A stretch of 29,728 bases of DNA, from the IMG/VR virus record IMGVR_UViG_3300040801_005641, positions 1-29,728 of that record. One strand, given 5' to 3'. Each line of letters opens with the position of its first letter. Position 1 is the stretch's first letter. Both the position numbers and the translations under genes were made by a program. Below are positions 4,330-29,728 of the stretch, piece by piece. The stretch comes from a virus. The notes under the pieces are model-generated. The model did not search any database, was not told the DNA's origin, and worked only from the letters and a program-made list of their open reading frames with translations.

Positions 4330-5537
4330 GTTTTATTATTAATGATGAATTTGTTATTAAAGACAGTGATCAAGTAGATCCTTTTGGTAGAATGAGAGCC
4401 ACTACTCCCTTGTTAATCTTTAGTTCAGTGTTAGAAACTACGGATCAAGAAGGTTATAACTGGCATAGCCTAACTAATGGCACAGCAAGTTATACTTATT
4501 TACCTTTTGAATCCTCAGTAGAATTATCAATAGGCACCGATGCAGGTGATTATGTTGAAAGAAGAACATTGCGTAATTTTCAATATCAATCCAGCTATGG
4601 CATGACACTTTATATTAGTGGTGTTATCGGCACGATAGCAGATGGTTGTAAATCAGAGATTGGCTTCAAAGATGACGATAATGGCTTGTTTTTCCGCTAT
4701 ACAGTTAGTAATGGCTTATCTGTAGTTAGAAGATATACAATAGATAATACTGGAGTTGATGAAGACGTAGTAACTCAAAGTAATTTTAATTTAGACAAAT
4801 TAGATGGCACAGGCCCGAGCGGTTATAATATTGATCTAACTAAAACTCAAATATTCTTTGTTGATTATGGCTGGCTAGGTGTTGGCAGAATAAGATATGG
4901 GGTTTTTGTTAATGGTAAAGTGATATTTTGTCATGAGATAGAAACAGCTAATCTTTTAAGTACCGTTTATATGGGAGTTGGCAGCTTGCCTGTGGCTTAT
5001 AGAGTAGAAAATTTAACAGCAACTTCTTCTAGTTCTGAGATTAAGCAGATTTGCGCAGGGGTTTCGATAGATGGTGGTAGGCAAGAAATAGGGAGAAGCC
5101 GTGGTTTCCCTGCTACTGCTAATAATTTCTTATCAGCGCCTAGTGGTGCTACCTGGTACAATGTAATATCAGTCAGGATTGATTCTAATTATCCTTATGT
5201 TCAATATAACTTCTTGAATGCTTCTATAGTAAACACAGCTAATTCAGTAGGCGAATTGGCAATTATCAAAAATGGTGATATTTCAGGATTTACTTGGAGC
5301 TCAGATGGTGAATTTGCTGAGATCTCTGAGACACAGGATCCAGTAACAAACGGTAACATATTAGCATCTAGTGTATATGAAAGACGTGGGGATTCACAAA
5401 TAGCAAGCACCCAAATTAGTGATCGTATAGCACTAAGAGCTGATAATACTAGTGAAACACTAACCTTAGCAGCTAGAGGAGCTGATGGTAGTGTTGAAGT
5501 TACAGGTGGTTTGAACTTAGTTTTATATGGCGGGTAA
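4326..5537 (+). CDS. large phage virion surface protein (DPFGRMR / NLDKLDGTGPSG type)
   Basis: The start at 4326 (MSFIINDEF) is chosen over the in-frame ATG at 4314 because GGAGA lies five bases upstream and it gives an ATGA overlap with the previous stop. The product is 403 residues. Conserved-looking elements are VDPFGRMRATTP near the N-terminus, FNLDKLDGTGPSGYNIDL in the middle, followed by WLGVGRIRYGVF. These recur, from memory, in structural proteins of tailed phages and other large viruses, but no precise function is known to me. No transmembrane segment or enzyme motif is visible. Its position immediately upstream of the terminase, at the end of a fibre-like cluster, supports a structural role. 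The stop overlaps the terminase start by one base (TAATG). Confidence 0.68.
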   Translation: MSFIINDEFVIKDSDQVDPFGRMRATTPLLIFSSVLETTDQEGYNWHSLTNGTASYTYLPFESSVELSIGTDAGDYVERRTLRNFQYQSSYGMTLYISGVIGTIADGCKSEIGFKDDDNGLFFRYTVSNGLSVVRRYTIDNTGVDEDVVTQSNFNLDKLDGTGPSGYNIDLTKTQIFFVDYGWLGVGRIRYGVFVNGKVIFCHEIETANLLSTVYMGVGSLPVAYRVENLTATSSSSEIKQICAGVSIDGGRQEIGRSRGFPATANNFLSAPSGATWYNVISVRIDSNYPYVQYNFLNASIVNTANSVGELAIIKNGDISGFTWSSDGEFAEISETQDPVTNGNILASSVYERRGDSQIASTQISDRIALRADNTSETLTLAARGADGSVEVTGGLNLVLYGG

Positions 5538-6955
5538 TGAATATACCAGCTGCTGAAAAAAGAGCATTATTAAATGCCATCTTAAGGAATGATTTGTATT
5601 CTTATACTAGAAAAGTATTTGAAGTAGTATCACCCGGTGAAACTTTCTTAGGTAATTGGCATATAGAATTGATCTGTAAGTACCTAGAAGCTTGTAAGAA
5701 TGGTGATATTAATCGGCTTATCATTAACTGCCCGCCAAGGCACTTAAAATCCATATCAGTAGCAGTGGCTTTTACCACCTGGATTTTGGGTAAAGATCCA
5801 AGTGAAAAGGTAATATCAGCATCTTATTCCAAAGATTTAGCTTTAAAGCACTCACTTGATGCTAGGGCAGTTATTAATAGCCCTTTTTACCAAGAAATTT
5901 TTCCAGAAGTTAAAACTATAGATGATCAAAATACTAAATCGAAATTTATGACTACTCAAAGAGGTTTTAGGTATGCGGTCGGTGTAAATGGCACAATTAC
6001 TGGGGAAGGAGCTAATTATTTAATAATTGATGATCCACAAAATGCAGTCAATGCTCATTCAGATACTTATCGTAACAATGTCAATAACTGGTTTGATCAA
6101 ACATTTAGTACCAGACTTAACAATAGAAAGACTGGTAGAATGATAGTTATAATGCAACGTCTACATGAAGATGATTTGACAGGGCACTTACTGGAAAAAG
6201 GTGGTTGGGAGCATCTTAAGATTCCTCTAATTGCCGATGAAGAAAAAACTCATAAAATATATAGCTTTGAATATCATAGAAAAGAGCAAGAATTATTGCA
6301 GCCAGATAGAATGGGTTGGAAAGAAGTAGAACAAGCTAAAACAGAATTAGGCAGTAAAGCATTCACTGAACAATACCAGCAAGCACCAGCCCCGCAAGAA
6401 GGTTCTATTATTAAATATCATTGGATTAAAACCTATAAAGTGCTGCCACATATTAAGCTATATTCTTGGAGCTGGGATACTGCCATAAAAGAAGGGCAAG
6501 AAAATGATTATAGTGTCGGGTTATTATGGGGTGAAGCTGAGGACGGTTATTATCTTATAGATATGATTAGAAGAAAAATGGAGTATCCAGATCTTAAGAA
6601 ATGCGTGCAAAATTGCTATAATACTAGAAGATCCTCAGAAGTAATAATTGAAGATAAAGCAAGTGGACAGCAAATATATCAAGATTTTAAAAGATTAGGT
6701 AATTTACCTATATTACCAGTTTCACCTGGTAAAGACATGCCAAACACAAAAGTAGAAAGAGTAAATTTAGTATCACCACAGTTTGAAGCAGGCAGAATAT
6801 TTGTTCCTCAGAACTCCAACTTCACCGATGATTTTATCCATGAATTAGCACATTTTCCTAATGCCAAACATGATGATATTGTAGATGCAACTACTCAATA
6901 CCTCATAAAAAGGCTTAATTTATACAATAAAGTTCCACAAATTAGACGGCTTTAA
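5537..6955 (+). CDS. terL: terminase large subunit
   Basis: This 472-residue packaging motor has an N-terminal ATPase and a C-terminal RNase H-like nuclease. The ATPase shows a deviant Walker A (PPRHLKS, 66-72), a Walker B (YLIIDDP, 161-167) and the coupling-type motif MQRLHEDDL (206-214). The nuclease shows three acidic clusters: WDTA (D314), IEDKASG (E372, D373) and HDDIVDA (D446, D447). Known enzymes of this family cut concatemeric DNA and pump it through the portal, which is encoded next. The length is normal for the family. The start overlaps the previous stop by one base. No recognisable small subunit is encoded beside it, which is unusual. Confidence 0.96.
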   Translation: MNIPAAEKRALLNAILRNDLYSYTRKVFEVVSPGETFLGNWHIELICKYLEACKNGDINRLIINCPPRHLKSISVAVAFTTWILGKDPSEKVISASYSKDLALKHSLDARAVINSPFYQEIFPEVKTIDDQNTKSKFMTTQRGFRYAVGVNGTITGEGANYLIIDDPQNAVNAHSDTYRNNVNNWFDQTFSTRLNNRKTGRMIVIMQRLHEDDLTGHLLEKGGWEHLKIPLIADEEKTHKIYSFEYHRKEQELLQPDRMGWKEVEQAKTELGSKAFTEQYQQAPAPQEGSIIKYHWIKTYKVLPHIKLYSWSWDTAIKEGQENDYSVGLLWGEAEDGYYLIDMIRRKMEYPDLKKCVQNCYNTRRSSEVIIEDKASGQQIYQDFKRLGNLPILPVSPGKDMPNTKVERVNLVSPQFEAGRIFVPQNSNFTDDFIHELAHFPNAKHDDIVDATTQYLIKRLNLYNKVPQIRRL

Positions 6956-6975
6956 CCTCCAAACCTAGCTTATAA

Positions 6976-7004
6976 TTGCTAAATTACAATATAACAATTA
7001 AACT
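6976..7004 (+). promoter_or_regulatory. promoter-like element TTGCTA-N17-TAAACT
   Basis: TTGCTA (6976-6981) and TAAACT (6999-7004) are separated by 17 bases in the 90-base gap between terminase and portal. The hexamers match those before the protease gene closely (TTGCAA and TAAACT). It lies 41 bases upstream of the portal start. Confidence 0.5.
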
Positions 7005-7045
7005 TATATAATAATAAATATCTAGCAAATAAATCGTAGGTTATA

Positions 7046-8446
7046 ATGTCATTATTCAAGAAGTTTTTTAAGAAGCCAGAAAAAAAATCAGCTATTAGTA
7101 ATTTAGGTATGGCAGGTTTTATTAATAATTTGATGTATCAAGGATTTGATAATTTATCTAGTTATGTTGCTATTAGATATTACCAAAGTTGTGCTCCACT
7201 TAATGCTGCTATTGATATGATAGCAGAAGAATTTTGTGGTATTAACGTATATTTGTATGACAAACAAGAAAAGGATTATACAGATAATCATCCTGTATTA
7301 AATTTACTAGGCCATCCAAATGCCGATAAGACTGGTAGTGAATTTATGAAAGAATTAGCAGCTTATCTATTAATAACGGGCAATGTATACATAGTAGCAA
7401 GTGGTAACGTTAATAGGGAGCCTGTCGAATTATATGTTGTGCCATCACAATATGTGACTTTACAGCCCGGAAGGGATGGCTACACTGAAACTATTACTGT
7501 CACTTTTGAATCTAATAGATCTGAAGTATTTAGACGTCAAGAAGTTAAAAGACGTTTTAGATATTATAGCGGTGATGATAGAGAAATATGGCATATCAGA
7601 GACTTTAATCCAAAACAAAGTGCAAATGACTTATATGGTATGAGTAATTTAACGCCAATATTTTATGAGATTGAGCAATATATTGAAGCATCAATTCATA
7701 ATACTTCTTTACTTAGAAGGGGAGCTAGAGTAAGTGGCGCTTTACAAAGTGATAATAACTTAACCGATGAACAATTTATGAGATTACAGGAGCAAGTTAA
7801 TAATTTCTATAGTGGTAGTGATAATGCTGGCCGTCCTTTATTGTTAGAAGCTGGAATGAACTTTACAGAAATGTCCATGAATAACAAAGATATGGACTTC
7901 TTAGAGCTTAAGAAAAATGTTACTTATATGATTTACAACGCCCTTAAAATACCATTGCCATTAATAAGCCCTGAACACAGTACATTATCCAATATGGAAA
8001 TAGCTAAGCTTAATTTATATGATAATGCTATTTTACCAATAGCTAGACGTATTTACACTGAACTTAGTATTTTCTTATTACCACGTTATCGAAAGGATAA
8101 TGAATTAACAAGATATCGTTTAAGTTACAGCCCGGGGGAAATAACAGCCTTAGAGCCTAGAAGAAATGATGAGTTAAACAAGCTAAATGAACTTGGAATA
8201 TTAACTATTAATGAATTGAGAGCCAAAATAGGTTATGAACCACTTGAAGGTGGTGATAATGTTTTAAGCCGCTTTAATCAAACAACGGTGGCTACGGATC
8301 AATACACGGAGGATCAACCAGAAAGGCCAGTGCCTCGCAATCAAAAAGAATTTATAGAATCATTAAAAAAGCATCGGAACGAAAAGGGTGTAAGAATTTA
8401 TAGCGATAATTTTATAGATAGATTAATGAAACGGTATGGAAACTAA
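7046..8446 (+). CDS. HK97-family portal protein
   Basis: This 466-residue protein should form the dodecameric ring at the unique head vertex through which DNA is packaged. Seen are a basic N-terminus (LFKKFFKKPEKK), the early CAPLNAAIDMIAE segment, a central FMKELAAYLLITGNVYIV segment followed by VVPSQYV, and WHIRDFNP. The segment LKIPLPLISPEHSTLSNMEI is typical of the stem and crown region. Position after terminase and before a Mu gpF-like protein is the standard order. The last 11 coding bases overlap the start of the methyltransferase gene and form the left copy of a 12-bp direct repeat, so in an ancestor the portal gene probably overlapped the gpF-like gene directly. Confidence 0.93.
   Translation: MSLFKKFFKKPEKKSAISNLGMAGFINNLMYQGFDNLSSYVAIRYYQSCAPLNAAIDMIAEEFCGINVYLYDKQEKDYTDNHPVLNLLGHPNADKTGSEFMKELAAYLLITGNVYIVASGNVNREPVELYVVPSQYVTLQPGRDGYTETITVTFESNRSEVFRRQEVKRRFRYYSGDDREIWHIRDFNPKQSANDLYGMSNLTPIFYEIEQYIEASIHNTSLLRRGARVSGALQSDNNLTDEQFMRLQEQVNNFYSGSDNAGRPLLLEAGMNFTEMSMNNKDMDFLELKKNVTYMIYNALKIPLPLISPEHSTLSNMEIAKLNLYDNAILPIARRIYTELSIFLLPRYRKDNELTRYRLSYSPGEITALEPRRNDELNKLNELGILTINELRAKIGYEPLEGGDNVLSRFNQTTVATDQYTEDQPERPVPRNQKEFIESLKKHRNEKGVRIYSDNFIDRLMKRYGN
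8435..8446 (+). repeat. left copy of 12-bp direct repeat flanking the methyltransferase insert
   Basis: The sequence TATGGAAACTAA contains both the portal stop codon and the methyltransferase start codon. An identical copy lies at 10356-10367. The repeat spacing is 1921 bases and no terminal inverted repeats were seen at the ends. Confidence 0.8.
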
Positions 8447-10355
8447 TATAGCTCAAATTGGTAGAATTCCTAACCATTTCTTCCATATTGTATTCGATAT
8501 TGTTCTAAGTAATGCAACAATTGATTCTTTAGCTTCTTCTAATCTATATGAAGATTCTTTAGATGTAGAATTTAGGAAAAATTTTGGCATCTATTATACC
8601 GATGAAGAAAACATATTGAAGCTTATTAAACCCTTATTTTTGAGCAAGATAGAGAAGGAATATGAAGGATTTCAACATGACTCTGGAAAGCTAAAAGCCT
8701 TGCTTAACCGAGTAAGCAAAATTAAGCTATTCGACCCGGCATGTGGTTCAGGTAATTTCTTGATTATTGCCTATAAAGAATTGCGAAGGCTAGAAATGCG
8801 CATTCTAAAAAGCTTGCAACTCCTTGGAGCTGTCAGTGAGAATGAGCTGAAAAGCTGCATAAAGCTGGAGCAGTTTTATGGTATTGAAATAGATGATTTT
8901 GCTCATCAAGTGGCTACATTGTCCTTATGGCTTGCTCAACACCAGATGAATAAGGAGTTTGAAAAACACTTCAAAGTCTGTGAGCCGTTTTTGCCATTAA
9001 AACAAAGCGGTAAGATTATTTGCGCTAATGCGTTGCGGATAGATTGGCAAGAAATATGCCCAAAAACACCAGAGGAAGAAGTTTATTTGCTTGGTAATCC
9101 ACCTTATGTGGGATCAAAATACCAAATTAAACAACAGAAAGAAGATATGGCTTATATATTTAAAAATTCTAAAAGTTATAAGAAGCTTGATTATGTAGCT
9201 TGCTGGTTTGTTAAAGCAGCGGAATATAGTAAAGATTCAGAAGCAGAATTTGCTTTTTTTGCTACTAAATCTATTTGTCAGGGAGAACAAGTAGCAATAT
9301 TATGGCCAAATATTTTGGAGAAAAATCTAGAAATTAGTTTTGCGTATAAACCATTTAATTGGAGCAATAATGCTCGTAATAACGCTGGTATGCCTGTGAT
9401 AATTATAGGAATGCGCGCTCCTAAAAAGGAAAATAAATATCTTTATGAAGGAAAAAATAAAAAAATTGTGAGAAATATAAATCCATATCTTGCAGAAGGA
9501 GAAGATTTAACTATTTGCCCTAGAACTAATCCTATAAGTAATCTTCCGAAAATGATGAAGGGAAATATGCCTAATGATGGTGGGCATTTATTATTAAACG
9601 AAAAAGAGAAAGATGAAATGTTAAAAATACATCCTGGCGCAGAGAAGTTTATTAAACGTTTTATGGGTTCAAATGAGTTAATCAATGGTATAAAAAGATA
9701 TTGTGTATGGATTGAAGACAAAGAAGTTGAAGAAGCTTTAAATTTTTCTTTAATAGCTAAAAGAGTAGAATCAGTTAAAGAGACTAGACTTAAAAGCAAA
9801 GACCAAGGAGCACAGAAGCTCGCTAATTACCCATATAAATTCAGGGAACAACATATGGCTAAAAATAACTCACTCATAATTCCAGTGGTTTCATCTGAAC
9901 GGCGTGAATTTTTACCAATAGCTTTTTTAGATAAAAATATAATTGTTTCTGGCGTAACTCAAGCCATATATGATCCTGAGTATTATATTTTTGGAGTAAT
10001 TGCTTCCAAAATGCATATGGCTTGGGTACAAGTCACTTCTGGCAAACTCAACACACAACTCATGTATTCCTCCACATTATGCTATAATAATTTTCCATTC
10101 CCTGAAATCACTGAGCGGCAGAAGAAGAGCATTGCAGAATGCGTACTTGATGTGCTTAATGAGCGGCAGAAACATCCGGGCAAGACCATAGCAGAACTTT
10201 ATGACCCTGATAAAATGCCAGAAGGTTTGAGGCGAGCCCATAAAGATATGGACATGGCAATAGAGAATTGTTACCGGCCAGGCCAGCCTTTCGAGAATGA
10301 CGAGGAACGTTTGGCTTATTTATTTGAACTATATAAAGAAATGATACAGAGGTAA
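8436..10355 (+). CDS. MmeI-type adenine DNA methyltransferase lacking the nuclease domain
   Basis: This 639-residue protein contains the MmeI methyltransferase domain from about residue 45 (YYTDEENILKLI, 53-64), motif I (FDPACGSGNF, 99-108) and motif IV (GNPPY, 220-224). The recognition domain follows (about 430-555, with SSERREFLPIAF and SKMHMAW), then the C-terminal domain (ITERQKK to the end). Full MmeI-like enzymes are about 900 residues, with an N-terminal nuclease and helical linker; both are missing, so this should methylate but not cut DNA. It probably protects phage DNA from restriction; that is inference. The gene splits the usual portal/gpF pair and is bounded by a 12-bp direct repeat that supplies its start codon (METN against METK in the next gene). 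It is a paralogue of the gene at 2-994, and its C-terminal coding region is GC-richer than its neighbours. Confidence 0.92.
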   Translation: METNIAQIGRIPNHFFHIVFDIVLSNATIDSLASSNLYEDSLDVEFRKNFGIYYTDEENILKLIKPLFLSKIEKEYEGFQHDSGKLKALLNRVSKIKLFDPACGSGNFLIIAYKELRRLEMRILKSLQLLGAVSENELKSCIKLEQFYGIEIDDFAHQVATLSLWLAQHQMNKEFEKHFKVCEPFLPLKQSGKIICANALRIDWQEICPKTPEEEVYLLGNPPYVGSKYQIKQQKEDMAYIFKNSKSYKKLDYVACWFVKAAEYSKDSEAEFAFFATKSICQGEQVAILWPNILEKNLEISFAYKPFNWSNNARNNAGMPVIIIGMRAPKKENKYLYEGKNKKIVRNINPYLAEGEDLTICPRTNPISNLPKMMKGNMPNDGGHLLLNEKEKDEMLKIHPGAEKFIKRFMGSNELINGIKRYCVWIEDKEVEEALNFSLIAKRVESVKETRLKSKDQGAQKLANYPYKFREQHMAKNNSLIIPVVSSERREFLPIAFLDKNIIVSGVTQAIYDPEYYIFGVIASKMHMAWVQVTSGKLNTQLMYSSTLCYNNFPFPEITERQKKSIAECVLDVLNERQKHPGKTIAELYDPDKMPEGLRRAHKDMDMAIENCYRPGQPFENDEERLAYLFELYKEMIQR

Positions 10356-10367
10356 TATGGAAACTAA
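10356..10367 (+). repeat. right copy of 12-bp direct repeat flanking the methyltransferase insert
   Basis: TATGGAAACTAA is identical to 8435-8446 and contains the start codon of the gpF-like gene. Removing one copy plus the insert would recreate a portal/gpF-like overlap of 11 bases with both reading frames intact. Confidence 0.8.
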
Positions 10368-11160
10368 AGAGCGTGTAACAGCTGAAAGAAGAAGGGAAGC
10401 TGAGGAAAGTAGGGATAAAAAGATTGAATTTGAAAATGATTTTAGAGAAGTTATACAGCAATTTTTTACTGAGCAACTAATTCCCGAAGTGGTTGGAAAT
10501 TATAGAGACACTGGCGCTATTATGGGTGTTGAAGAAAACACTGATAATTTCACTGAAATCTTAATGGATAATTACCGTAAGATAGGCAGCTATTTTAAAA
10601 ATAATTTACGAAGGAAAATAGAGAGCGGTAAATCATTTGAAACTAAGCAGAATGCTAATGATATAATTGATGAAAGGCTGGAAACATTTTACGAATTACA
10701 TGCAGCCAAACAGGTAACGGAGTTGAATGATACTACTATGGATGAATTTAGTAATAATCTAAGTAAAATTAGACGGGATTTAACAGATCAAGGGATAGAT
10801 ATAACAGATGCAGCTATCGCAGAAAGGTTGGAAGAAGTTTCACAAGAAAGAGCACGGACAAGAAGTCAAATGATAGCTCAAACTGAAACTCAAATAGTAT
10901 CTGAGCAAGTTAAATTAACGGAAGCAGAAGTTTTAGAAGAAGAAGGGGAAGTAAGTGATGTTCGTAAGCAATGGATTACTATGGACGATCCATCTGTCAG
11001 GCCGGCACATGCGGCTGCTAATGGACAGCTTGTTGATGTAGAAGATGATTTCGTTGTTGGCGGTGAAAGATTAAATATGCCCGGTGATCCAGCTGGTAGT
11101 GCTGGGAACGTTATTAATTGTCGCTGTAATGCGGTGCTAGTAAGGGAGGGAGAGGTTTAA
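10357..11160 (+). CDS. Mu gpF-like minor head (head morphogenesis) protein
   Basis: This is a 267-residue protein. The C-terminal 70 or so residues carry the Mu gpF-like head domain signature: RKQWITMDDPSVRPAH, GQLVD, GGERLNMPGDP and a final NVINCRCN with paired cysteines. The N-terminal two thirds are highly charged and helical (ERVTAERRREAEESRDKK and others). Such proteins associate with the portal inside the prohead and normally follow the portal gene directly, as this one probably did before the methyltransferase insertion. Only one base separates it from the methyltransferase stop. Its stop overlaps the convergent antitoxin stop by three bases. Confidence 0.88.
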   Translation: METKERVTAERRREAEESRDKKIEFENDFREVIQQFFTEQLIPEVVGNYRDTGAIMGVEENTDNFTEILMDNYRKIGSYFKNNLRRKIESGKSFETKQNANDIIDERLETFYELHAAKQVTELNDTTMDEFSNNLSKIRRDLTDQGIDITDAAIAERLEEVSQERARTRSQMIAQTETQIVSEQVKLTEAEVLEEEGEVSDVRKQWITMDDPSVRPAHAAANGQLVDVEDDFVVGGERLNMPGDPAGSAGNVINCRCNAVLVREGEV

Positions 11161-11354
11161 CTCTCCTTACTTTCTTCTAATAAATCCATCATTGTTTCAT
11201 ATAATTTCGTAGGAACACAATAGAAAGCTGGCTTGCTACGATTAAGTATGGCAACGGTTTCACCATTTGCTTCATTAACTACTTTCATGGGGCTGCGTTT
11301 AAAATCACTTACATTAGCTATATTAGTTGCTAGAATTCTTCTAGTTTTTGACAT
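11157..11354 (-). CDS. orphan StbD/RelB-like (Phd/YefM superfamily) antitoxin
   Basis: This is a 65-residue protein. The pattern ISxLK-like VSDFKRSPMKVVNEANGE, then VAILNRSKPAFYCVPTKLYE, is that of the StbD/RelB branch of the Phd/YefM fold. Known members bind their own operator through the N-terminal domain and neutralise a RelE/ParE-type toxin with the C-terminus. The usual C-terminal toxin-binding extension is short (MMDLLEESKES). No toxin gene follows: the next gene downstream on this strand would lie inside the convergent gpF-like gene. It is therefore an orphan, possibly neutralising a toxin encoded elsewhere or acting only as a repressor. AAAGG lies just upstream of the start, and a perfect inverted repeat sits at 11363-11388. 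Confidence 0.85.
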   Translation of the reverse strand: MSKTRRILATNIANVSDFKRSPMKVVNEANGETVAILNRSKPAFYCVPTKLYETMMDLLEESKES

Positions 11355-11362
11355 GTTAACCT

Positions 11363-11388
11363 TTAATATATTTACAATTATATATTAA
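11363..11388 (-). promoter_or_regulatory. perfect inverted repeat, candidate antitoxin operator
   Basis: The arms TTAATATAT and ATATATTAA (9 bases each) are separated by 8 bases and end 9 bases upstream of the antitoxin ATG. Antitoxins of this fold typically bind such palindromes to autoregulate. The arms are purely A/T, so chance is a real alternative. Confidence 0.45.
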
Positions 11389-11394
11389 TATTTT

Positions 11395-11643
11395 TTATAT
11401 TATTTTCAATATATTTTTCAAGTTAGTTATAATATTTTCATTAGCACCACCTAATCTAAAAACTAGGTATATTTCTTGTGCTATGAAATGCATTGTTTTT
11501 TGATCGTTTAAATCTATTTTTTCTTCAAATTCATTTGCGACTTCACAAATCATTGTTTTTAATTTATAGCTTTCTAGGTCTTTTTTTTGACCTAGTTGCT
11601 TAGCTATATTTTCTATATTATTTTTTAAAATCTTGGTAAACAT
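11395..11643 (-). CDS. unknown small protein in reverse-strand island
   Basis: This 82-residue product is not recognised. The start at 11643 (MFTKILK) is preferred over the in-frame ATG at 11655 because GGAG lies six bases upstream of it; the upstream ATG follows the previous stop with no clear ribosome site. The sequence is mainly helical and polar, with no membrane segment. It lies 12 bases after the gene at 11656-11955 on the same strand, so the two form an operon, perhaps extended by the antitoxin gene 40 bases further on. An accessory (moron-like) function is inferred only from orientation and position. Confidence 0.6.
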   Translation of the reverse strand: MFTKILKNNIENIAKQLGQKKDLESYKLKTMICEVANEFEEKIDLNDQKTMHFIAQEIYLVFRLGGANENIITNLKNILKII

Positions 11644-11655
11644 AAATGACTCCAT

Positions 11656-11955
11656 TTATTGTGATACTTCTGAAATTACTTCTTCTTTAGCTTTATAAAG
11701 CGCTGCTAATATTTCTTCTTCTTTATCTTCAAAAATAAAAGCCTTAATTGTTGTAATTTCTTGTTGCAGCTCTTCGTGCTCTTTTTCTATTCTTTCTATA
11801 AGCTCTTCTCTTAAGCCTTGTTTTCTATTTACTGGTAAATCAAAATTTAAAATTCTTTCTTTACTGCCAGAGTTATAATCTGCTTCTTTACTTTCTACAT
11901 AAACCTTTTGTTTTAAAAGCTCTGTTAAGTTTAGTTTGATATTTAAGTTTGTCAT
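11656..11955 (-). CDS. unknown 99-residue helical protein
   Basis: This protein is not recognised. The N-terminus (TNLNIKLNLTELLKQKVYVE) could be a beta strand and helix; residues about 50-95 are strongly helical and charged (IEKEHEELQQEITTIKAF, EEEILAALYKAKEEV), compatible with a coiled coil. It is the first gene of the reverse-strand operon and has an excellent ribosome site (GGAGAAGGAGG) and a promoter-like sequence upstream. Strong expression signals in the opposite direction to the late genes suggest expression at another stage, for example in the lysogen. That is inference. Confidence 0.65.
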   Translation of the reverse strand: MTNLNIKLNLTELLKQKVYVESKEADYNSGSKERILNFDLPVNRKQGLREELIERIEKEHEELQQEITTIKAFIFEDKEEEILAALYKAKEEVISEVSQ

Positions 11956-12200: not shown

Positions 12201-13730
12201 ATGCCATTACCAGCACCGCAGCAAAGCGAAGAAAGAGAAGAATTTATTCAAAGATGTATGTCGGATGAAAATGTGATTGAAGAATTTGCAGATAATAACC
12301 AGCGCCACGGGGTTTGTAGCAGCCTGTATGAAGGAACTGGTAATGATAATTTCTCAGGAAAAGAAATGTCACAGAATTTAGATTATCAAGGGCTTAAAGA
12401 AGGTGAGTATGTCCAGCTAAAGATAGGTATGGCAGTTACTACTGGTTATCTGGAAGAAATAATTGATAATAGCACGGTAATAGATCCTTCAACTAACTCA
12501 AATCTTTCACCAAAAGATGATGATCCTATTGGCTTAATTAGACTGGTAGATGTTGGTGAATCAGAAGCAGATAATTATAAACTCACTAACAAAATTGTTG
12601 CCAGATATTTATCAGAAATTAGAAGGTTAGGAATGGAAAGAGAAGAAAGCGAAAATAGTAAATCCAAAGATCAAAATAAAGAAGTTAAGCATTTTAAGTT
12701 TGAAGTAACTGAAACTAAGGCTGAAAGAGATATAGGTATAGTTAAGGGTTATGCTTCTACTTTTGGCAATATTGATCGTGGTGGTGATTTAATATCCCAA
12801 GGGGCGTTTAGCAAATCACTTGCTAGATATAAAAAGCAAGGCCGTCCAATCAAAATGTTTTATCAGCATGACAATATGGAAATTATCGGTGGCTTTCCGA
12901 TAGATAAAGTTGAAGAAACCGAATTTGGTTTAAAAGTAGAAGGACAAATTAACCTTAATGTTCAGCGTGGTAAGGAAGCTTACCATTTAGCACGTCAAGG
13001 TGTTTTAACTGACTTTTCGATCGGCTACACAGTAGAAGATTTTGAAATGAGAGAAAATTACAGGGAATTAAAAGAGTTAGAGCTTTGGGAAGTATCACTG
13101 GTTGGCGAACCAATGAATGAAATGGCAGTTGTAACCTCGGTTAAGTCGGTGCCAAGTGTAACTGATATGAAAATGGCTAGTAAAGAGGTTCCATTTAGAG
13201 AAGGGGAAGCTTTAGCAAGGGTCAAAGAGTTTTGTGGTGTCAAAGAAAAAGCTAACCGTCAATATAGGCGGGCTTTCATGTATTACGATGAAAAGCAGGC
13301 AGATAATCCAGACTCATACAAAATGTTAGTTACAGACATAGTTGATAATGAAATGAAAATAATACCTAAAGCAGTTAGAAAGGTATCTCGTAATTTGGAA
13401 GATTATGCTGAGGATCTAGATTTATCTGAAAATGAATATAAAAAGATCAAAAATAACTTGATTAAGCTTTATGAAAAAATGGGTAAAAGTTATCCATATA
13501 AAGAATTAGATAAATTATTTCATATCAAAGATGTTTGGCAAATAAAAGATAAAAAAGAATTCGAAGCGCTCCTGAGAGAATCAGGCGCCTTTTCTCGGAA
13601 GGCGGCAGTATATCTAGCCAGCCAATTTAATCCAGGACAGAGTGACTCTGTTGAGCAAAAGAAAAATGCTACTGATAACGATATATCAGAGCTAAAACAA
13701 TTAATTCAACAATATAAAGGTATAGTATGA
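12201..13730 (+). CDS. HK97-family prohead protease with N- and C-terminal extensions
   Basis: This 509-residue protein has three parts. Residues 1-150 start with a Cys-containing segment (FIQRCMSDENVIEEF, RHGVCSS) seen in many phage head-maturation proteases. Residues about 165-310 are the serine protease: GYASTFGNIDRGGDLISQGAF, then YQHD (probable catalytic H223), DFSIGY (probable S273) and LWEVSLVGEPMN. Residues about 320-440 (VPFREGEALARVKEFCG, MKIIPKAVRKVSRNLE) form a domain often fused to these enzymes and may act as scaffold. The enzyme is expected to cleave scaffold and capsid N-termini during prohead maturation. It overlaps the capsid gene as ATGA. The ribosome site is GTAGGTAG. Confidence 0.92.
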   Translation: MPLPAPQQSEEREEFIQRCMSDENVIEEFADNNQRHGVCSSLYEGTGNDNFSGKEMSQNLDYQGLKEGEYVQLKIGMAVTTGYLEEIIDNSTVIDPSTNSNLSPKDDDPIGLIRLVDVGESEADNYKLTNKIVARYLSEIRRLGMEREESENSKSKDQNKEVKHFKFEVTETKAERDIGIVKGYASTFGNIDRGGDLISQGAFSKSLARYKKQGRPIKMFYQHDNMEIIGGFPIDKVEETEFGLKVEGQINLNVQRGKEAYHLARQGVLTDFSIGYTVEDFEMRENYRELKELELWEVSLVGEPMNEMAVVTSVKSVPSVTDMKMASKEVPFREGEALARVKEFCGVKEKANRQYRRAFMYYDEKQADNPDSYKMLVTDIVDNEMKIIPKAVRKVSRNLEDYAEDLDLSENEYKKIKNNLIKLYEKMGKSYPYKELDKLFHIKDVWQIKDKKEFEALLRESGAFSRKAAVYLASQFNPGQSDSVEQKKNATDNDISELKQLIQQYKGIV

Positions 13731-14902
13731 CAGATGAATTAAAGGATCTAGTCTATGAATTCCGCAATACTCTTAATGAAAAAAATCAGGAGAGTACTGA
13801 GGTTAAATCCAAGCTGAGCAAGATCGAATCAGAACTTGATAAGCATGAAGAAAAAAATCAGAATCTCGTTAAAGAGTTAGCTGAAAAAGAAAAAAGACAA
13901 GCTGATATAGAAGAAAAGCAAAAAGAAATGGAAAGCAAGTTAAGTAGAATGCCAAGATCTGAAAGATCTGAATTTCAAACAACTCCTCATTACAAAGCTT
14001 TCGAAAATTTTGTTAGATATGGCAAACAATATTTGTCCCCAGAAGAAGTAAAATATCTTCGTACGGATAACGATCCAGAAGGCGGTTATTTAGCACCATC
14101 TGAATTTGTAACTGACATTATCAAAAAGATAACTGAGATAAGCCCGGTTAGACAGGTTGCTAGAATAAGACAAACCAACCGTCACAGCATAGAAATTCCT
14201 AAGCGTGAGAATCTAATACAAGGTGGTTGGATCGGTGAAGGACGTTCTTTCCCACAGGATAATTCCAACTATGGAACACAAGTCATTAAAGTAAATAAAA
14301 TGGCAGTATTCCCAACTATTACTACTGAAATGTTAACTGACAGTGCCTTTAATATGGAAGCTGAAATCAGCCAAGATATTGCTGAGGAATTTGAAAGAAT
14401 AGAAGGAGCTTCATTTATCAAAGGTAACAGCGTTAATCAACCAGAAGGCTTGTTAACTAACCCAGATGTACAAGAAGTAAATACTGGTATAGCAAATGAT
14501 ATCACAGCCGATGCTATCTTAGAATTGAGAGGTGAGCTTAAGCAAGGTTATCAAGGTGCTTATATGATTAATAGAAGAACCTTATCTAGAATAAGAAGAT
14601 TGAAAGCTGGGGATGGACATTATTTATGGCAGCCATCTTTGGGACAGTCACAGCCTAATACCATTAACGGGGAACCATATTATGAAGCTATAGATGTTGA
14701 TGATATCGAGCCAGGTTCTAACCCAGTTATATATGGGGACTTTATGCGTGGTTATACCATAGTTGATTCAACTCAAATGAGCTTGCTAAGAGATAATTAC
14801 ACATTAGCAGCTGAAGGCAAAGTTAGATTTGTTGCTCATAGAAGAGTTGGTGGACAGGTAACTTTAGCTGAGGCAATCAAAAAGCTTAATGTAGCTGAAT
14901 AA
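13727..14902 (+). CDS. HK97-family major capsid protein
   Basis: This is a 391-residue protein. Residues 1-75 are a highly charged coiled coil (KLSKIESELDKHEEKNQNL), equivalent to the HK97 delta scaffold domain that the protease removes. The HK97-fold body begins about residue 85 and shows NDPEGGYLAPSEFV, then GWIGEGRSFPQ, then FPTITTEMLTDSAFNMEAEI and EFERIEGASFIKGN, all typical of the family. The C-terminus contains VIYGDFMRGYTIVDSTQMSLLRD. Start and stop overlap the protease gene by four bases. Length and domain order are normal. Confidence 0.96.
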   Translation: MTDELKDLVYEFRNTLNEKNQESTEVKSKLSKIESELDKHEEKNQNLVKELAEKEKRQADIEEKQKEMESKLSRMPRSERSEFQTTPHYKAFENFVRYGKQYLSPEEVKYLRTDNDPEGGYLAPSEFVTDIIKKITEISPVRQVARIRQTNRHSIEIPKRENLIQGGWIGEGRSFPQDNSNYGTQVIKVNKMAVFPTITTEMLTDSAFNMEAEISQDIAEEFERIEGASFIKGNSVNQPEGLLTNPDVQEVNTGIANDITADAILELRGELKQGYQGAYMINRRTLSRIRRLKAGDGHYLWQPSLGQSQPNTINGEPYYEAIDVDDIEPGSNPVIYGDFMRGYTIVDSTQMSLLRDNYTLAAEGKVRFVAHRRVGGQVTLAEAIKKLNVAE

Positions 14903-29234: not shown

Positions 29235-29543
29235 ATGGCGAAATTATTTTACAAAGTTGATACTTATATCGATTTATACCAACTAGCTTTTAACTTAAGC
29301 GAAGATTATAAAAATAATACATTTACTAAGGAACAAATCAAAAAATTTGATAAATTATTAGATCATTATATTAACCGAGTTATTATGCTGCGCTTATATA
29401 GGCACGATGGTTATTTAGAAGAATTATTTGGCAAAAAGTTTCTTAAATTATTCAAATCCTTAGAAGTTTATATTAAATCAAGGGAGCCTCTTAGAGTATT
29501 AGAAGATAAAATAGATGATAATTTTAATATCAAGTTTGGCTAA
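29235..29543 (+). CDS. unknown 102-residue helical protein after the tail module
   Basis: This protein is not recognised. It is mostly helical and rich in Lys, Leu, Asp and Tyr (LAFNLSEDYKNN, KEQIKKFDKLLDHYINRVIML, LEELFGKKFLKLFKSLEVYIK), with no signal peptide or membrane segment. AGGGG precedes the start. Its C-terminus, FNIKFG, is nearly repeated by the first residues of the next gene (MNIKYG), and the underlying DNA is a near-direct repeat 20 bases apart, possibly marking an insertion junction. The stop overlaps the methyltransferase start as TAATG. A chaperone or regulator role is possible, but nothing in the sequence decides it. Confidence 0.6.
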   Translation: MAKLFYKVDTYIDLYQLAFNLSEDYKNNTFTKEQIKKFDKLLDHYINRVIMLRLYRHDGYLEELFGKKFLKLFKSLEVYIKSREPLRVLEDKIDDNFNIKFG

Positions 29544-29728
29544 TGAATATCAAATATGGTAATTTTCTAACTGAGGAAGTATTTGATGATGCATTTGATA
29601 TAGTAATAGGTAACCCGCCTTATCGTGGTTTCAGTTATCAAACAGAGCAACAAAAGCAAGAAATGGGTTATGTGTTCCAAGGCTTTAAAAATTATAGAAA
29701 GCTAGATTATAGTGCAGCCTTTATGGTA
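29543..29728 (+). CDS. DNA adenine methyltransferase, N-terminal part of a motif IV-start form (3' end outside the window)
   Basis: Sixty-two residues are visible. The frame starts MNIKYGNFLTEE and reaches motif IV (FDIVIGNPPY) by residue 27, so as annotated it lacks the upstream SAM motif I. After motif IV the sequence turns MmeI-like: SYQTEQQKQEMGYVF and YRKLDYSAAFMV, matching KYQIKQQKEDMAYIF and YKKLDYVACWFV of the protein at 8436-10355. Before motif IV it resembles the Eco57I-like gene at 975. It thus looks like a chimera joined at motif IV. The start overlaps the upstream stop by one base. Confidence 0.75.
   Translation, partial: MNIKYGNFLTEEVFDDAFDIVIGNPPYRGFSYQTEQQKQEMGYVFQGFKNYRKLDYSAAFMV

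Follow-up and report, generated by a model that had tools for sequence, protein, structure and literature searches.

We found that an MmeI-type methyltransferase gene lies between the portal gene and the gpF-like head morphogenesis gene of a tailed phage, and that it is bounded on both sides by identical 12-bp copies, TATGGAAACTAA, corresponding to the place where portal and gpF overlap in relatives. The source is a viral record, a single metagenomic contig of 29,728 bases, the whole of which is called the window here. The duplicated overlap around the methyltransferase is confirmed. With a probability of roughly 0.8, we interpret it as the product of an ancestral portal/gpF junction at whose overlap a methyltransferase gene was inserted, took over a start codon, and would now be expressed late along with the head genes so as to protect progeny DNA. 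The window holds a tailed-phage head and tail operon (ORFs, Pfam, and PHROG), and the listed head genes are all on the + strand:

5537-6955, + strand, terminase large subunit (ORF, Pfam/PHROG)
7046-8446, + strand, portal (ORF; Pfam Phage_portal PF04860, E 3.4e-65; PHROG portal), with C-terminus ...EKGVRIYSDNFIDRLMKRYGN and stop codon TAA at 8444-8446
8435-8446, + strand, left copy of the 12-bp repeat, holding the last portal codons and stop and the methyltransferase start
8436-10355, + strand, MmeI-type methyltransferase, 639 aa (Pfam MmeI_Mtase 3e-107, MmeI_TRD 7e-78, MmeI_C 4e-21)
8447-10355, + strand, inserted segment between the repeat copies
10342-10359, + strand, SD-like AGAGG in the methyltransferase 3' end, methyltransferase stop TAA at 10353-10355, and gpF ATG at 10357 (from the sequence)
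10356-10367, + strand, right copy of the 12-bp repeat, with the gpF-like start codon
10357-11160, + strand, gpF-like (Mu F-like) head morphogenesis gene (Phage_Mu_F 3.7e-12; PHROG head morphogenesis 6.8e-31)
11147-11168, + strand, terminator-like hairpin at the gpF 3' end (pattern match only)
12201-13730, + strand, head protease
13727-14902, + strand, major capsid protein

Between gpF and the protease (11157-11955) sit three small minus-strand genes, one of them Phd/YefM antitoxin-like, and relatives L011 and L022 likewise carry minus-strand clusters of small genes at this place.

A repeat search found the exact 12-mer in the window only at 8435-8446 and 10356-10367, an offset of 1921 bases. 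The portal gene ends in TAT GGA AAC TAA, and the methyltransferase and gpF-like ORFs share the opening ATG GAA ACT AA. An earlier note on this DNA had described the repeat at both ends of the methyltransferase segment, the left copy with the portal stop and methyltransferase start and the right copy with the gpF-like start, and its coordinates proved exact. It had also stated that deleting 1921 bases restores an 11-base portal/gpF overlap, and indeed, when one such period is dropped, the overlap reappears and both frames stay open. The duplication, at 12 bp, is one base longer than the 11-base minimum that spares both genes. The AT-rich window contains 353 same-strand pairs of exact 12-mers, and at that frequency the repeat by itself means little. 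Agreement over 12 bases between two ATG contexts, by comparison, occurs in 4.8e-5 of ATG pairs, and only one of 435 gene-start pairs, that of the methyltransferase and gpF, matches at more than 10 of 12 positions. The phage therefore does not use the 12-mer as a common start context, a possibility that the earlier note had allowed, and a shared start context as the cause of the repeat is rejected on this comparison. The reading in which the 12-bp identity reflects convergence or start context, and the methyltransferase was merely added between adjacent genes, can appeal to the recurrence of chance exact 12-mers in AT-rich DNA; however, the start-aligned identity is unique among gene-start pairs and the predicted overlap is found at the same codons in relatives, and we give this reading almost no credence. 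A chimeric metagenomic contig joined at the methyltransferase is also very improbable. The record is one contig and bears two further methyltransferase pieces at its ends, as such an artifact might, but 12 matching bases are too few to misdirect an assembler, three frames are unbroken across both joins, and the insert is flanked by the expected neighbors.

Separate support for an insertion comes from junctions that lack it. Scans with the portal as query returned >100 viral loci, whose junctions were surveyed uniformly, and among 344 genomes from the order to which a Rickettsiales MAG belongs, a portal search recovered a single full-length relative, locus L154; start codons in relatives were computer-assigned. 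The earlier note had proposed that the portal might be joined directly to gpF in related phages, and this was found in ten loci with the junction TATGGAAATTGA (L154, L201, L208, L209, L210, L213, L220, L223, L227, and L232), namely nine viral contigs and the one Rickettsiales-order genome (L154). TATGGAAATTGA is identical to TATGGAAACTAA at 10 of 12 bases, and all ten loci have an 11-base overlap, with the portal ending in FYGN or YYGN before its stop and gpF starting MEID. An 11-base overlap also occurs in L180 (TATGGCGATTGA) and L034 (TATGGCTGCTAA). Overlaps at the same portal codons were seen in 11 loci beyond the ten, so that the gpF ATG falls within a (Y/H)-G codon pair of the portal in 21 loci altogether. 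Unrelated sequence at the insert-free junction, which the note had regarded as damaging to its model, is thus not what the TATGGAAATTGA and (Y/H)-G relatives show. Several of the ten loci are close to one another; nevertheless, ungapped identity among L154, L213, L220, L201, and L232 is 54-80% across the ~460 bases surrounding the junction, which indicates that several lineages stand behind it. The window portal C-terminus, RIYSDNFIDRLMKRYGN, aligns with RLYNDEYIELKVKEFYGN of L154, the final YGN and stop being common to both, and the left repeat is therefore the native portal end. Profile comparison identifies the downstream gene of L154 as gpF-like (hhalign 95%, E 2e-8), and the BLASTP match of this gene to the window gpF was not significant.

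These comparators are diverged relatives. TATGGAAATTGA-type loci are ~35-43% identical to the window in the portal, while junctions of another build occur in the relatives nearest in portal identity (46-48%), so that the ancestral state rests on the ~35-43% relatives, and overlap length at the junction varies widely among relatives. Near-identical relatives, whether carrying or lacking the insert, are not known; exact peptide patterns found no close relatives of the methyltransferase, gpF, or major capsid protein; and the portal had no match in an alignment search of a collection of genome contigs or, at a strict E value, in 385 genomes of the class. An MmeI methyltransferase was present in none of 30 portal-related viral records checked, and the L154 genome gave a weak match only, on another contig. 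An empty-site comparator and a flanking duplication are both present, and the methyltransferase stands, as phage morons do, between genes that are adjacent in relatives. Comparison shows a putative ancestral overlap of 11 bases, with the gpF ATG inside the last Tyr-Gly codons of the portal. As a separate observation, the gpF-like protein of L040 (16146-18131) contains an apparent intein in its conserved INCRC motif (INC-FPGDTRVSG...LLAHN-CRC).

From residue 33 onward, the window methyltransferase aligns to residues 294-903 of MmeI, a Type IIL RM enzyme (PDB 5hr4), with 39% identity over 611 columns. Since MmeI comprises a nuclease (1-155), spacer (156-300), methyltransferase domain (301-620), and recognition domain (621-825; PMC4833311), an alignment that begins at residue 294 means that the nuclease and spacer are missing from the window protein, and Pfam likewise gave no match to a PD-(D/E)XK nuclease or helical spacer in it. 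What the two enzymes have in common is the gamma-class N6A methyltransferase domain, the MmeI TRD, and the C-terminal bundle, all detected here by Pfam and fold. The description of the gene as a nuclease-free MmeI methyltransferase was thus borne out, and from its sequence we file it as a probable MmeI-type orphan methyltransferase rather than a Type IIL RM enzyme. Both motif I (DPACGSGNF) and NPPY are preserved in it, and they hardly vary among 23 sequences. The AlphaFold model has a pLDDT of 86, with low confidence at residues 1-53, and its best PDB match is MmeI 5hr4 (Foldseek E 1e-66); no relative of the first ~32 residues was detected. In prokaryote genomes, most relatives have 880-950 aa and include the nuclease/spacer region. 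CamA-like orphan methyltransferases form the next-best fold group after MmeI. Like the window protein, CamA of Clostridioides difficile is a nuclease-free N6A methyltransferase with a recognition domain, although identity is ~16% and CamA is a chromosomal regulator, whereas the window methyltransferase is a gene of a phage head operon. The MmeI homologue of phage NatCom_9287 is also phage-encoded, methyltransferase-only, and nuclease-free (37% identity) but belongs to another phage and another gene context. The GC content of the methyltransferase (0.347) does not set it apart from its neighbors (0.326-0.376).

Other MmeI-type sequence occurs in the window. A paralogous C-terminal part at 2-994 has 69% protein identity to the copy at 8436, with divergence that peaks in the recognition domain, and a dN/dS of 0.31, indicating purifying selection on the MmeI-type family here; the pattern suggests a maintained family that may differ in targets. 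Both contig ends (1-994 and 29543-29728) lie in MmeI-type methyltransferase sequence on the same strand. Between them, the pieces cover residues ~218-258 and 300-638 of the 8436 copy, are complementary, and resemble one gene minus ~40 residues; this could mean a circular or permuted record with a short stretch missing, or repeated methyltransferase genes at which assembly stopped. The methyltransferase genes at 975-2378 and 29543-29728 start just before NPPY (MNIKQANTLTEE... and MNIKYGNFLTEE...), without motif I, and the start of the 975 gene overlaps its upstream gene by 20 bases. In the 29543 gene, an Eco57I-type start appears to be joined at GNPPY to MmeI-type sequence, which suggests that it may be a product of module exchange. 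An Eco57I/TaqI_C-type gene has a near-duplicate, GIKTGYNKAFIIDNETKEKL / GVLTGCNKAFIIYDETKEKL, at the start of its specificity region (1520-1690), and a near repeat, AATATCAAGTTTGGCTAAT / AATATCAAATATGGTAAT, occurs at 29520-29565, where the 29235 ORF meets the 29543 methyltransferase.

Homology of position supports the view that the start codon of the 8436 methyltransferase is that of the ancestral gpF: it occupies the position of the gpF start in relatives, in agreement with the earlier suggestion that capture of the gene duplicated the translation start. We propose that a 5'-truncated MmeI-type gene entered exactly at the portal/gpF overlap; the truncation coincides with the boundary of the MmeI methyltransferase domain. 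The left copy still forms the portal end while offering, from the former gpF ATG, an in-frame start to the methyltransferase, and the right copy provides the gpF start 1 base past the methyltransferase stop. Ribosomes finishing the portal would reinitiate at the methyltransferase, as they once did at gpF, and then at gpF, for which AGAGG from the methyltransferase 3' end is a putative ribosome-binding element. Such stepwise reinitiation would make the methyltransferase late, in step with the head proteins, during packaging. The enzyme would methylate adenines at N6 in freshly replicated phage genomes ahead of packaging, and the modification would shield the progeny from a host restriction system that recognizes the same target. 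Since the nuclease is absent, protection of progeny DNA from a same-target host enzyme is the best-supported role; most likely, the gene is expressed late together with the head genes and its product methylates the progeny genomes, and possession of the modification half alone suggests counter-restriction rather than defense. Promoter-like matches were no commoner than in shuffled sequence and terminator-like matches inside the insert were only weak. No promoter or terminator of its own is evident for the methyltransferase, which may distinguish it from phage morons, and it would use the start signal of its neighbors.

How the insert arrived is a separate matter, and three accounts of it differ from the explanation above only in the route. 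We hold as tentative a history in two steps, in which the overlap was tandemly duplicated by polymerase slippage, harmlessly un-overlapping the genes, and the methyltransferase later came between the copies by illegitimate recombination; the repeat would then be older than the insertion and hence not a target-site duplication. L017 reads TATGGCTAATGGCTGAT where L034 reads TATGGCTGCTAAT, and the gpF proteins of the two are 83% identical; a small tandem duplication of ATGGCT (at about 1789-1810 of L017) un-overlaps the genes with no insert, which makes slippage first and insertion later plausible, and the variable overlap lengths among relatives point the same way. Nevertheless, this history requires an insertion that landed precisely between the two copies and placed the methyltransferase in frame with the left ATG, and a full tandem copy of the overlap is seen in no relative.

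It is likewise possible, though doubtful, that arrival took one step, with a methyltransferase fragment captured at a staggered break or by aberrant one-ended transposition and a 12-nt gap filled to leave a true target-site duplication. A clean duplication flanking one gene fits this account, as does the 12-bp repeat together with an uninterrupted site in relatives, although the repeat could be slippage-born. However, a stagger of 12 nt would be atypical for a homing enzyme. The insert ends, when re-examined, had no terminal inverted repeats, and the insert has no transposase, as the earlier note had reported; the methyltransferase is the only gene that it contains. Pfam gave methyltransferase domains only, with no homing endonuclease domain in the insert, and nothing was found in favor of homing-like insertion. 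According to PMC3031569, RM genes are reported to enter new sites with duplication of the target and through aberrant IS events, and Nobusato et al. (2000), as cited in PMC3031569 and PMC1643837, described target duplications that are long and variable. Such insertions resemble the present case in the modification gene, the comparator without it, and the target duplicated on both sides. They differ from it in the length of the duplication, which in the window is 12 bp and neither long nor variable, in that the modification half stands alone here, and in the target, which is a phage gene overlap. The 13 relatives with other genes or gaps at the portal/gpF junction showed no flanking repeats above chance, which also speaks against a one-step route; the junction is often interrupted, and the duplicated-overlap signature is found only in the window.

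Transfer by homologous recombination from a phage already carrying the methyltransferase between portal and gpF is unlikely. Phage head modules do recombine, and foreign genes occur at this place in other relatives, including an unrelated DNA methyltransferase in L021; yet a donor was absent from the viral and prokaryote collections searched, and such transfer merely shifts the original event elsewhere. In L021, that methyltransferase occupies 6294-7541 between portal and gpF, an independent modification gene at the junction. More improbable would be a mobilizing process specific to modification genes, by which truncated methyltransferases may enter stop-start overlaps of phage operons, the overlap being duplicated each time, the neighbors spared, and a start codon supplied. 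Whatever the route of the insertion that we favor, the extent of the repeat may have been set by selection and not necessarily by a cutting enzyme: an insertion duplicating <11 bases would break portal or gpF, so that selection alone may explain the 12-bp extent.

Phage-borne orphan methyltransferases, moron insertion, and target duplication are already known. What is unusual is the clarity of an exactly duplicated overlap, an in-frame takeover of a start codon, and relatives that show the prior state. Phage genes overlap tightly and yet phages continually gain genes, and here one such gain can still be read from the sequence: its site is given precisely by the repeat, and the newcomer's start codon is traceable to the gene that it displaced. 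The case provides a testable model in which an accessory gene may join an essential operon with its expression already arranged. A repeat at such a site may stem as much from selection for undamaged neighbors as from the cutting enzyme, and the window offers a clean example of how a phage gains a gene while its old genes stay unbroken.
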